Shown piece after piece: positions 47,523 through 51,786 of a DNA stretch of 64,000 nucleotides (position 1 is its first letter; every line of letters starts with the position of its first letter). The DNA comes from an uncultured Flavobacteriales bacterium (GTDB lineage: Bacteria; Bacteroidota; Bacteroidia; Flavobacteriales_G; Salibacteraceae). The stretch spans positions 1 to 64,000 of the forward strand of contig CAJIZE010000001.1 of NCBI GenBank assembly GCA_905181855.1, in the 5' to 3' direction. The position numbers and the translations under genes were made by a program. The notes beneath the pieces were generated by a model, which did not search any database, was not told where the DNA came from, and saw nothing but the letters and a program-made list of their open reading frames with translations.

Positions 47523-48806
47523 ATGAAAGATAAACAATATCAAGTAGTTATAATCGGCGGCGGAACCGCTGGTATTACTGTAGCATCAAAGCTGAAAAGA
47601 AAAAAGCTAAACTTAAAAGTCGCTATAATTGATCCAACAGAGCATCATTATTATCAACCAGTCTGGACATTGGTTGGAGCAGGCGCATTTAATATGCAGG
47701 ACACCATACGTCCGGAAAAAGATTACATACCTAAAGGTGTTGATTGGATTAAAGAATATGCTGAAGATATAGACCCTGAAAATAATCTTGTGACCATTAA
47801 GAATGGCGACAAGTATTCATACGATTATTTAGTAGTTGCTCCAGGTATAAAAATCGATTTAAGCCTCTTGGATGGTTTAACTGAAACAATGGATAAAAAC
47901 AACGTATGTTCAAACTACACCAATCCGGAATATACTTGGGAGGTTCTGCAAAAAACCAAAAAAGGAGTAGCCTTATTTACTCAAGCGCCAACACCAATAA
48001 AATGCGGAGGGGCACCACAAAAAACAGCCTACTTATCAGCAGATTATTTTAGAAAAAATGGGTTAGCTAAAGATGTTAAAACAGTATTAGCACTGCCAGG
48101 TTCAGTAATATTTGGAGTTAAAGAATTTGCCGACACCTTAATGCAGGTTGTATACAGATATGGTATGATTCTAAAGTTTTACCATAAACTAACCAAAATC
48201 GATGCTGTTAATAAGGTGGCACACTTTACACTTACCGCAACCGATGAAAGCAATTGCATCATTACAGTAAATGACGACGATAATGTAATACATGAAGAAA
48301 TTGTAGGTGAAGCTAAAGTTACCATACCTTATGATATGCTTCATTTAGCACCACCGCAAACAGCACCTGATCTTGTAAGTAAATCTTTGTTAGCACATAA
48401 AGAAGGAGTAAACAAAGGCTGGATGAAGGTAAATCAGTTTACAATGCAGAGTCCAGATTATTTTAATGTTTTTGGACTAGGCGATTCAGCAGCTTTGCCA
48501 ACAGCAAAAACTGGTGCTGCGGTAAGAAAACAAGCACCGGTTATTGTAGAAAACATTTTGAGGTTAATGGATTCAAAAGACATTTTACCTGAATCAAAAG
48601 GGTACAATGGTTACAGCTCGTGTCCTTTAGTTACGGGATATGGAAAAATGTTATTAGCAGAATTTGGATACGGAAACAAACGTATGAGTGATTCTTTGCT
48701 GTCTACTTTTGTTGACACTACAAAAGAACAATACAGTATGTGGTTACTTAAAAAATACGGGTTACCAATTCTATATTGGAACTTTATGCTGAGAGGAAAA
48801 GCATAA
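47523..48806 (+). CDS. sqr: Sulfide:quinone oxidoreductase-like flavoprotein
   Basis: 427 residues. FAD-binding VVIIGGGTAGITVASKL at the N-terminus and a second FAD/quinone motif FNVFGLGDSAALPTAKTGAAVRKQAP. Redox Cys candidates are in NVCSNYTNP and PIKCGGAPQK, in the right places for the SQR disulfide; HHYYQPVWTLVGAG is characteristic. It oxidises sulfide and reduces quinone at the membrane. Closest in layout to the type II/mitochondrial-like group. A single gene with its own terminator. Confidence 0.9.
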   Translation: MKDKQYQVVIIGGGTAGITVASKLKRKKLNLKVAIIDPTEHHYYQPVWTLVGAGAFNMQDTIRPEKDYIPKGVDWIKEYAEDIDPENNLVTIKNGDKYSYDYLVVAPGIKIDLSLLDGLTETMDKNNVCSNYTNPEYTWEVLQKTKKGVALFTQAPTPIKCGGAPQKTAYLSADYFRKNGLAKDVKTVLALPGSVIFGVKEFADTLMQVVYRYGMILKFYHKLTKIDAVNKVAHFTLTATDESNCIITVNDDDNVIHEEIVGEAKVTIPYDMLHLAPPQTAPDLVSKSLLAHKEGVNKGWMKVNQFTMQSPDYFNVFGLGDSAALPTAKTGAAVRKQAPVIVENILRLMDSKDILPESKGYNGYSSCPLVTGYGKMLLAEFGYGNKRMSDSLLSTFVDTTKEQYSMWLLKKYGLPILYWNFMLRGKA

Positions 48807-48832
48807 TCATAAAAGCTAAATACGCATTAAAT

Positions 48833-48871
48833 GGCAAGCACAAAGATCTCCACCTAACTTGCCGTTTTTGT
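48833..48871 (+). terminator. Terminator after sqr
   Basis: GGCAAG / CTTGCC stem with a long loop of about 19 nt, followed by GTTTTTGTTTT. The long loop makes it only moderately convincing. Confidence 0.5.
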
Positions 48872-48981
48872 TTTCTAAAGAGTACTAATTAACAATATTT
48901 GCCGCCGTAAGTAGCTATAACTAAATGAGCGACTTAATTTTAGAACTTAATTGTATTGCTTATAATTCTTTTATTCAACTG

Positions 48982-49012
48982 TTGCTCATAAATAAAATTA
49001 ATCCTACATTTG
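48982..49012 (+). promoter_or_regulatory. Promoter TTG-N20-TACATTTG
   Basis: TTG at 48982-48984 and TACATTTG at 49005-49012 with a 20-nt spacer, the same spacing as the suf promoter. Leads the rplM-rpsI-rpsB-tsf block. A small CCCC/GGGG hairpin lies right after the expected start site. Confidence 0.65.
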
Positions 49013-49066
49013 CGCCCCCGTTAGTTGAGGGGTTATTATTATCAATCCATAAAATACTTTATAAAA

Positions 49067-49522
49067 GTGGATACATTAAGTTATAAAACAGTTTCGGTAA
49101 ACAAAGCAAACGCTGACAAAAAGTGGTTTACAGTTGATGCCGAAGGAGAAAATTTAGGAAGATTAGCATCTAGAGTTGCTATGGTTATTAGAGGGAAGCA
49201 CAAACCATCTTACACACCACACGCAGACTGCGGAGATTTTGTAATCATTCTTAATGCCGATAAAGTTGAAGTTACCGGCAAAAAAGCAGATCAAAAAGAA
49301 TACATACGTCATACCAACTATCCTGGTGGTCAACGTAAAACTTCTTACAGAGAAATGATGGAGAAACACCCTGAACGTGTTCTTGAAAAAGCAGTTAGAG
49401 GAATGTTACCTAAAAATAAATTAGGCGATGCGTTATACAGAAACCTATATGTTTATCTAGGTACTGAGCATCCACATGTTGGGCAACAACCAGCAGCATT
49501 AAACATTAATACAATAAAATAA
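49067..49522 (+). CDS. rplM: 50S ribosomal protein L13
   Basis: 151 residues from a GTG start at 49067 (MDTLSYKTVSVNKANADKKW), matching the family's N-terminus and length; the frame is open 14 codons further up, but that part is not conserved. Typical GENLGRLASRVAMVIRGKHK and VRGMLPKNKLG motifs. rpsI follows 2 bp later. Confidence 0.95.
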   Translation: MDTLSYKTVSVNKANADKKWFTVDAEGENLGRLASRVAMVIRGKHKPSYTPHADCGDFVIILNADKVEVTGKKADQKEYIRHTNYPGGQRKTSYREMMEKHPERVLEKAVRGMLPKNKLGDALYRNLYVYLGTEHPHVGQQPAALNINTIK

Positions 49523-49524
49523 GC

Positions 49525-49911
49525 ATGGAAATAATCAATACACTTGGTAGAAGAAAAACCTCAGTAGTGAGGTTGTACATGCAAAAGGGTAAAGGTAATG
49601 TTATTGTTAATAACAAAGATTTAGCTGTATATTTTCCTACTCCTGAACTACAAAAAAGAGCTGTTAAGCCGTTTGCGGTAACCGAAACGATGGGTCAATA
49701 CGATCTAAAAGTTATTGCTAGTGGTGGAGGAATATCAGGTCAGTGTGAAGCGTTAAGCTTAGCTATTGCTAGAGCATTAGTTAAAATTGACGAAGAAATG
49801 AAACCAGCACTTCGTGCGGAAGGCCTGATGACTCGTGACCCTAGAATGGTTGAACGAAAAAAACCAGGACAGAAGAAAGCGCGTAAGAAATTCCAATTCT
49901 CTAAACGTTAA
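49525..49911 (+). CDS. rpsI: 30S ribosomal protein S9
   Basis: 128 residues. N-terminal GRRKTSVVRLYM and C-terminal KKPGQKKARKKFQFSKR, the tail that reaches the P-site tRNA. Translationally linked to rplM, as in most bacteria. Confidence 0.96.
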   Translation: MEIINTLGRRKTSVVRLYMQKGKGNVIVNNKDLAVYFPTPELQKRAVKPFAVTETMGQYDLKVIASGGGISGQCEALSLAIARALVKIDEEMKPALRAEGLMTRDPRMVERKKPGQKKARKKFQFSKR

Positions 49912-49920
49912 TATTTATCA

Positions 49921-50057
49921 GTGTTTAGCATCCAAATTACCGAGGCTTTTAGCAATAAAAGCCGAGGTGGTAATTGTCTCCTACTTGCTGGGGATCCGAG
50001 GAAAGTGAACACGCTGCGCCGACAGTTTTTCGGTAATACTATATAATACAATATATC
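49921..50057 (+). ncRNA. Structured 5' leader of rpsB (candidate autoregulatory RNA)
   Basis: The 146-bp gap is packed with complementary segments. Hairpin 1: AATTACC (49935-49941) with GGTAATT (49969-49975), enclosing GGCTTTT/AAAAGCC. Hairpin 2: TCTCC (49977-49981) with GGGGA (49990-49994). Alternatively ATTACCGA (49936-49943) pairs perfectly with TCGGTAAT (50030-50037), ending 20 nt before the rpsB ATG; CCGA at 49996-49999 can also pair with TCGG. The two long pairings exclude each other. I cannot match it to a named RNA family. Confidence 0.6.
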
Positions 50058-50921
50058 ATGGAACAACCTAGTTTTGAGGAACTATTGCAAGCAGGTGTAC
50101 ACTTCGGTCACCTAAAAAGAAAGTGGAACCCTAATATGGCACCATACATTTTTATGGAGCGTAACGGTATTCACATTATTGACTTACACAAAACCAGCGC
50201 AAAGCTTGAAGAAGCTTGTAATGCCCTTAAACAAATTGCTTACTCAGGTAAACGAATTTTGTTTGTTGCAACAAAAAAACAAGCGCGTAACATCGTTACA
50301 GAAACCATAAAGGAGACTGGCATGCCGTTTATTACGGAACGCTGGACAGGTGGTATGTTAACCAACTTTGTTACTATTCGTAAGGCAGTGCGCAAAATGG
50401 AACTTATCGATAAATTATTAGCAGACAAAGAAGCTAGTAACTTATCAAAAAAAGAAAAATTAACTTTAGCACGTCAAAGAGCTAAATTAGAAAAGAATTT
50501 AGGTTCTATTGCTGATTTAACTCGTTTGCCAGCTGCTTTGTTTATTGTTGATATTCATAAAGAGCACATTGCTATTCAAGAAGCTAAGAGATTAAACATC
50601 CCTACTTTTGCGATGGTTGACACCAATTCAGATCCTAGATTGGTTGACTTTGCTATTCCTTCTAATGATGATGCCTCTATTTCGATTGAAAAAATATTGA
50701 GCTATGTTGCTGCGTCAATTACAGAGGGCCTTAAAGAGAGACAAGGTATGAAAGATAAAGCGAAAGAAGCAAAAGACACTAAAGACAAAGAAGCTAAGGA
50801 AGCAGATGAAGCTAAAGTGGTGAGTGATAAATTAGCTAAGGAGGCAAAAGATAACGAAGCTAAGAAAGCGAAAGAAGAAGCTACTGCTACTGCTGCTTCT
50901 CCGGCAGAAGAAACAAAATAA
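50058..50921 (+). CDS. rpsB: 30S ribosomal protein S2 with long charged tail
   Basis: 287 residues. The S2 core ends near 230 (LSYVAASITEGLKERQG), with GVHFGHLKRKWNPNMAPYI, GKRILFVATKKQA, and FAMVDTNSDPRLVDFAIPSNDDA all present. The last 55 residues are Lys/Ala/Glu-rich with repeated KEAKD-like units, probably a charged helix. Preceded by the structured leader, followed by tsf after 28 bp. Confidence 0.96.
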   Translation: MEQPSFEELLQAGVHFGHLKRKWNPNMAPYIFMERNGIHIIDLHKTSAKLEEACNALKQIAYSGKRILFVATKKQARNIVTETIKETGMPFITERWTGGMLTNFVTIRKAVRKMELIDKLLADKEASNLSKKEKLTLARQRAKLEKNLGSIADLTRLPAALFIVDIHKEHIAIQEAKRLNIPTFAMVDTNSDPRLVDFAIPSNDDASISIEKILSYVAASITEGLKERQGMKDKAKEAKDTKDKEAKEADEAKVVSDKLAKEAKDNEAKKAKEEATATAASPAEETK

Positions 50922-50949: not shown

Positions 50950-51786
50950 ATGGCAACAATAACTGCTGCAGAAGTAAATAAGTTACGTAAGCAAACAGGC
51001 TTAGGTATGATGGATTGTAAAAAGGCTCTTGTTGAAGCAGAAGGTGACTTCGATCAAGCAATTGATATCCTTAGAAAAAAAGGACAAAAAGTAGCTGAAA
51101 AAAGAGGTGATCGCTCTACTTCTGAAGGTCACTCAATGGCTAAAGTTAATGCTGAAGGAAACAAAGGTGTTATTATAGCGCTTAGCTGTGAAACTGATTT
51201 CGTTGCAATTAACGATGCGTTTATAGCTTTCGCTACTGAAATAGTTGACACTGCATTAAACAACAACATTGCTGATGCCACTTCTTTATTAGCTGCTAAT
51301 TTAGCTGATGGTAGATCAATTCAAGAAAACATTATTGATCAGATTGGTAAAATTGGAGAGAAAATTGAAGTTTCAGATTTTGCTCTAGTATCAGCTGATA
51401 CAGTTATAGCTTACAATCACCCAGGAAATAACATTGCTTCAATGGTAGGTTTAAACAAAGCTGGCGAAATGATTAGTGCTGCAGGTAAAGATGTTGCAAT
51501 GCAAATTGCTGCAATGGCACCAGTTGCTCTTGATGAGTCAAGTGTTTCGGAAGAAATAAAAGCAAAAGAACTAGAAATAGGAAGAGACCAAGCTATACAA
51601 GAAGGTAAGCCAGAGCAAATCGTTGATAAAATTGCAATGGGAAGACTAAAAAAATTCTTGAAAGAGAATACGTTAGTGGAACAAGCATATATTAAAGACA
51701 ATAAAATGTCGGTTGGTCAATATCTCAAAACTGTCGATAAAGATTTGGAGGTTATGGAATTTAAAAGAGTTACTACAACAAATTAA
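50950..51786 (+). CDS. tsf: Elongation factor Ts
   Basis: 278 residues. UBA-like N-terminal domain (EVNKLRKQTGLGMMDCKKAL), core with CETDFVA, and C-terminal EFKR. Nucleotide-exchange factor of EF-Tu. Same transcript as rpsB, closed by a strong terminator. Confidence 0.96.
   Translation: MATITAAEVNKLRKQTGLGMMDCKKALVEAEGDFDQAIDILRKKGQKVAEKRGDRSTSEGHSMAKVNAEGNKGVIIALSCETDFVAINDAFIAFATEIVDTALNNNIADATSLLAANLADGRSIQENIIDQIGKIGEKIEVSDFALVSADTVIAYNHPGNNIASMVGLNKAGEMISAAGKDVAMQIAAMAPVALDESSVSEEIKAKELEIGRDQAIQEGKPEQIVDKIAMGRLKKFLKENTLVEQAYIKDNKMSVGQYLKTVDKDLEVMEFKRVTTTN

Follow-up and report, generated by a model that had tools for sequence, protein, structure and literature searches.

Gene context of the rpsI-rpsB gap

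The window, by which we mean the entire 64,000-nt stretch that was analysed (all coordinates are on its forward strand), carries rpsI, rpsB and tsf in succession. rpsI ends at 49911 and the ATG of rpsB starts at 50058, which leaves an intergenic gap of 146 nt. This gap carries a conserved folded leader RNA that is common to many Bacteroidota. The elements of the leader and the surrounding genes are listed in Table 1.

Table 1. Genes, promoter-like site and leader elements around rpsB in the window
Feature	Position	Strand	Basis
Bacteroidota-type promoter-like site, TTG-N20-TACATTTG, before rplM	48982..49012	+	Pattern match
rpsI (ribosomal protein S9), upstream gene	49525..49911	+	rpsI end upstream in 80/80 named relatives
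P1 5′ strand, GTGTTTA	49921..49927	+	Covariation; pairs in nine window-subtype relatives
Mismatch loop 5′ side, GNA (GCA in the window) with invariant G and A	49928..49930	+	Alignment
UCC, pairs with GGA 50000-50002	49931..49933	+	Covariation
P2 base 5′ strand, ATTACC	49936..49941	+	Both-sided changes in all P2 pairs
P2 distal stem 5′ strand, GGCTTTTA	49944..49951	+	Pair probability 0.96-1.0
P2 distal stem 3′ strand, TAAAAGCC	49956..49963	+	Folding, pair probabilities
P2 base 3′ strand, GGTAAT	49969..49974	+	Covariation, model R2
UUG closing P2	49974..49976	+	Second U and G invariant, 48/48 in alignment A5
P3 5′ strand, UCUCC; P3 is an optional stem of the window's close relatives	49977..49981	+	
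P3 3′ strand, GGGGA	49990..49994	+	
GGA, inner part of P1	50000..50002	+	Covariation
Mismatch loop 3′ side, ANG (here AAG)	50003..50005	+	Alignment
P1 3′ strand, TGAACAC	50006..50012	+	Covariation; pairing in close relatives
P4 hairpin, CCGA-CAGUUUU-UCGG, window subtype only	50019..50033	+	Both-sided changes in 3/5 pairs
rpsB (ribosomal protein S2)	50058..50921	+	ORF and protein search
tsf (elongation factor Ts), next gene	50950..51786	+	tsf within reach in 78/80 named relatives

The promoter-like site before rplM is probably the start of an rplM-rpsI-rpsB-tsf transcript. A pattern scan of the rpsI-rpsB gap gave no Bacteroidota promoter pattern. A sigma-70-like match at 50019-50047 was discarded as an internal promoter, being at chance level and not of the Bacteroidota type. 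Since no terminator-like site was found in the gap either, transcription attenuation was rejected and control is more likely translational. With a promoter pattern only before rplM, rpsI upstream and tsf downstream, the leader is probably an intercistronic element of this transcript that acts on translation.

Structure and covariation of the leader

The rpsB upstream regions of 100 related genomes and 80 named Bacteroidota were compared. They shared a common pattern in which GUUUAGNAUCYAAA is followed by a hairpin, RUUG, a linker, RGAANGURAAC and the AUG. In stem P1, GUUYA pairs with URAAC and then UC with GA, these two parts flanking a symmetric GNA/ANG mismatch loop; P2 sits on top, and the stems P3 and P4 are added in the close relatives of the window. 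The closing frame of P2 is AAAY...RUUG across relatives. Within the mismatch loop the outer G.G and inner A.A were invariant in 55 of 55 sequences, the middle position being mostly U.U or C.C. This middle position (columns 11/109 of alignment A2 and 11/88 of A5) seldom held a standard pair, which may reflect either shared lineage or a real constraint.

In the 55-sequence alignment 87.6% of the cells were paired and 18 of 22 pairs showed both-sided changes, counts that are partly selected for P1 because its 3′ strands had been picked by complementarity, which was not the case for P2 and the outer P1 pairs. The covariation score was 0.453, compared to 0.178 for shuffled alignments and 0.138 or less for slid structures. 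In a cleaner alignment (A5), whose 48 sequences included none of the window subtype, 90.6% of the cells were paired, both-sided changes occurred in 17 of 23 pairs, and covariation was 0.523 against 0.189 when shuffled and at most 0.15 for slid structures. All 13 P2 pairs of A5 showed both-sided changes, and a change from A-U to G-C was seen within the conserved P2 loop. Among the close relatives of the window, P1 kept its pairing while its sequence varied (GTGTTTA/TGAACAC, AGGTTCT/AGAACCT, TACCA/TGGTA).

Folding of 49912-50090 gave -45.2 kcal/mol (z -2.15 against dinucleotide shuffles). For the P2 base, the single-sequence fold favoured the neighbouring GGTGGT at 49966-49971 over GGTAAT; the GGTAAT register was set by homology through the conserved AAAY...RUUG frame. 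The P4 equivalent in the nine members of the subtype had 95.6% of its cells paired and both-sided changes in three of five pairs, a count lowered by a one-base shift of the window row in the MAFFT alignment.

Distribution of the leader and linkage to rpsB

A covariance model (R2) was built without the window or any member of its subtype. With it, the window leader was the sole match in the 64 kb (35.7 bits, E 3.9e-5) and also the sole match in the whole genome of the window. With filters off, seven of the other eight subtype members reached E < 0.01 (24-29 bits), and L005 matched weakly (15.5 bits). The searches gave 40 matches among the 100 relatives, 39 of them real, as well as matches in 58 of 392 genomes of a phylum sample and in 84 of 395 genomes of a class sample searched with R2. 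Weak chance matches aside, each positive genome (39, 58 and 84, respectively) held one strong match.

The matches among the 100 relatives adjoined the rpsB positions obtained by protein search. When the hit loci L171-L239 were fetched, the S2 signature GVHFG was found downstream in 67 of 69; of the other two, L180 adjoins rpsB according to the protein search and L239 represents a weak chance match. At every locus checked, the leader was thus tied exclusively to rpsB. A structured leader linked to rpsB had been proposed by a sequence-only reading of this DNA. Both the covariation and the rpsB-adjacent matches bear this out and show the leader to be conserved.

In named Bacteroidota the leader was found at 66 of 80 rpsB loci (E 1.3e-5 or better), including records of Bacteroides, Prevotella, Muribaculaceae, Dysgonamonadaceae, Prolixibacteraceae and Winogradskyella, as well as Salegentibacter, Dokdonia, Mesonia, Cloacibacterium and Salibacter. 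Between the 3′ end of P1 and the rpsB AUG there are 0-48 nt (median 12); in the window subtype the distance is 45-48 nt and P4 is located in between.

Several Bacteroidia families have no leader and a short rpsI-rpsB gap instead. In four Bacteroidia loci without the leader (L077, L079, L082 and L085) a GGAGG-like Shine-Dalgarno sequence lies directly 5′ of rpsB, in agreement with the Shine-Dalgarno cases that PMC9976891 reports. In GC-rich Bacteroidia of family f10 (L055, L059, L194, L198) the leader is retained, P2 is long and the UUG has been lost. The Rikenellaceae/Alistipes-like loci L097, L132, L133, L139, L157 and L168 show no clear P1 upstream of rpsB and have weak P2-like matches just 5′ of the gene. 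At L133 (1365-1471) two such matches are adjacent, as if P2 modules were repeated.

A putative S2-sensing translational leader

In E. coli, S2 autoregulates rpsB-tsf via a structure in the 5′-UTR, and this repression is effective only with S1 (PMC10931766). PMC6847099 and PMC9976891 describe the Bacteroidota as a phylum without Shine-Dalgarno use, and the former describes how mRNA structure tunes initiation in Flavobacterium johnsoniae. Because of the E. coli analogy and the position of P1 near the AUG in such a phylum, we consider it fairly likely that the leader is a cis-acting element that senses S2, throttles rpsB translation via P1 and lowers the coupled tsf. S2 autoregulation was also among the simplest functions that the sequence-only reading had suggested. 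S2 as the ligand, the direction of control, the block of initiation and the effect on tsf are all inferred here. S2 in excess over 16S rRNA would bind the leader, most likely at the GNA/ANG mismatch loop of P1 and the base of P2, and would keep P1 closed. A closed P1, with its 3′ end a median of 12 nt from the AUG, would then block 30S loading on an mRNA that has no help from a Shine-Dalgarno sequence, so that rpsB and the coupled tsf would fall. In the window subtype P4 is placed between P1 and the AUG, and given the 45-48 nt that separate them, a block would need P4 or action at a distance, which weighs against this reading, as does the existence of several Bacteroidia families that do without the leader. 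A crude motif scan for 16S rRNA mimicry gave no P1-like match inside the 16S of three Bacteroidia.

Another product of the operon, namely EF-Ts, S9 or an S2-S1 complex, could be sensed rather than S2 alone. Since tsf nearly always follows rpsB (78 of 80 loci), EF-Ts as a ligand is compatible with synteny; rpsI is upstream in 80 of 80, and the need for S1 in E. coli (PMC10931766) would fit a complex. We regard such a ligand as rather unlikely, because the element adjoins rpsB and because the autoregulator known for this operon in E. coli is S2. The location within an operon whose rpsI-rpsB gap gave no promoter pattern would also suit a site of mRNA stability or processing that sets the ratio of the transcript halves without any protein sensing. 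However, the invariant unpaired GNA/ANG and UUG suit a binding site better than a plain stem, as does the proximity to the AUG, which makes this explanation quite improbable.

Relation to known ribosomal protein leaders

The sequence-only reading could place the leader in no named family, and a search of Rfam 15 agreed: no match was found for the window leader (E up to 10) or for the leader in 23 relatives (E up to 5). The proteobacterial rpsB motif t44 (RF00127) is among the closest known counterparts. Like the Bacteroidia leader it lies directly 5′ of rpsB-tsf, has a P1 with two variable stems and is presumed to serve S2 feedback. A distant relationship could be argued from the shared gene and a layout that is alike as worded, with a long P1, two variable stems and a 3′ extension available (PMC2704228). 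However, the conserved letters differ and P1 of the Bacteroidia leader is interrupted by the GNA/ANG mismatch loop. RF00127 was over the cut-off in none of 41 Bacteroidia genomes while matching the E. coli positive control, and our models R1 and R2 did not match the E. coli leader. Membership was therefore rejected by covariance models in both directions.

The defining J2/3 pseudoknot of t44 had no clear support in the Bacteroidia leader. For pairing between J2/3 and the 3′ extension, own sequences were about equal to swapped partners: with 6 nt the value was 3.63 compared to 3.58 for shuffled partners, and with 4 nt it was 3.46 compared to 3.37, a slight, lineage-confounded excess reached in 1 of 200 shuffles. 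The window-subtype candidates for such a pairing, UGUC/GACA and UGCU/AGCA, overlap P3 and P4. Taken with the differing models and letters, distant membership in t44 seems highly improbable. Bacteroidetes are also not among the lineages reported for the rpsB motif (Meyer 2009, PMC2704228).

L13-Bacteroidia (RF03127), also a ribosomal leader, belongs to this very operon of Bacteroidia, which comprises rplM, rpsI and rpsB. Unlike the rpsB leader, it heads the rplM transcript according to the table of Eckert and Weinberg 2020 (PMC7247131), which has no S2 entry. As a positive control, RF03127 was found in Prevotella L150 at 283-357, far upstream of the rpsB leader of that locus. It gave no match over the cut-off in the genome of the window and 59 relatives, and none was found before rplM at 48800-49120 of the window. 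The S4 and S16 leaders of Bacteroidia/Flavobacteria are likewise lineage-specific and upstream of their own ribosomal protein genes (PMC7247131); they differ from the rpsB leader in gene, and no Rfam family matches the latter. In the literature searched the leader is undescribed, and a machine-numbered candidate may exist in the large human-microbiome list of PMC8040213. With its conserved structure and its linkage to rpsB, the Bacteroidia rpsB leader adds a new family to the ribosomal protein leaders, a kind that is already known.

As Bacteroidota do without Shine-Dalgarno pairing at most genes, little is known about how their ribosomal proteins keep themselves in balance, and a widespread rpsB-tsf leader offers a concrete, testable case. 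Many gut and marine genomes also gain an RNA family that can be annotated. A broader proposal, which we make tentatively and at slightly less than even confidence, is that of a class-wide, Shine-Dalgarno-free S2 leader, unrelated to t44 in sequence and model and independently evolved, which would act by keeping a GNA/ANG stem near the AUG shut, and with P2-like modules replacing P1 in Rikenellaceae. If true, this would be a second, independent RNA route to S2 autoregulation and would bear on the recognition of extra-ribosomal RNA by S2.

Alternative pairings in the leader

The sequence-only reading had proposed a switch in which ATTACCGA (49936-49943) pairs either with the nearby GGTAAT (49969-49974) or with TCGGTAAT (50030-50037), opening or closing initiation. 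These letters and coordinates are correct, and the local ATTACC/GGTAAT hairpin proved to be the base of the conserved P2. The distal helix is an exact 8-bp complementarity in the genome of the window, but it is at chance level and unconserved. Among 400 dinucleotide shuffles of the gap, 6% held a helix of at least 8 bp with a loop of more than 40 nt. Forcing the ATTACCGA/TCGGTAAT helix gave -36.1 instead of -45.2 kcal/mol, a cost of 9 kcal/mol, and its ensemble probability was about 1e-5. The eight relatives of the same subtype have 3-5 complementary nt at these segments (3 in a genome of the same genus), with a mean of 4.6 nt for own pairs and 4.2 nt for swapped pairs. Comparison across rpsB upstream regions, which had been suggested as a check on both helices, thus supported the local one and not the long-range one.

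The two pairings do exclude each other geometrically, as had been stated, but as a switch this is unsupported: the helix is at chance level, only 3-5 nt are complementary in relatives, and the distal TCGG forms the 3′ side of the covarying hairpin P4. For all its perfect complementarity in this genome, the switch is scarcely credible; it is refuted as a conserved mechanism, and only a species-specific version could remain. The element controlling access to the AUG is probably the P1 stem, which was absent from that description.

A different alternative that would exclude P1, a pairing of J2/3 back to the P1 5′ strand (UAGC/GCUA or AUC/GAU), is possible judging from complementarity and is lineage-confounded. 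It beat swapped partners, yet we did not adopt it because the excess may reflect lineage only. Such complementarity is seen in Flavobacteriaceae-type loci (L119, L166), where GCUA after P2 matches UAGC of the P1 5′ strand; Bacteroidales-type leaders show it likewise, with GAU complementary to AUC.
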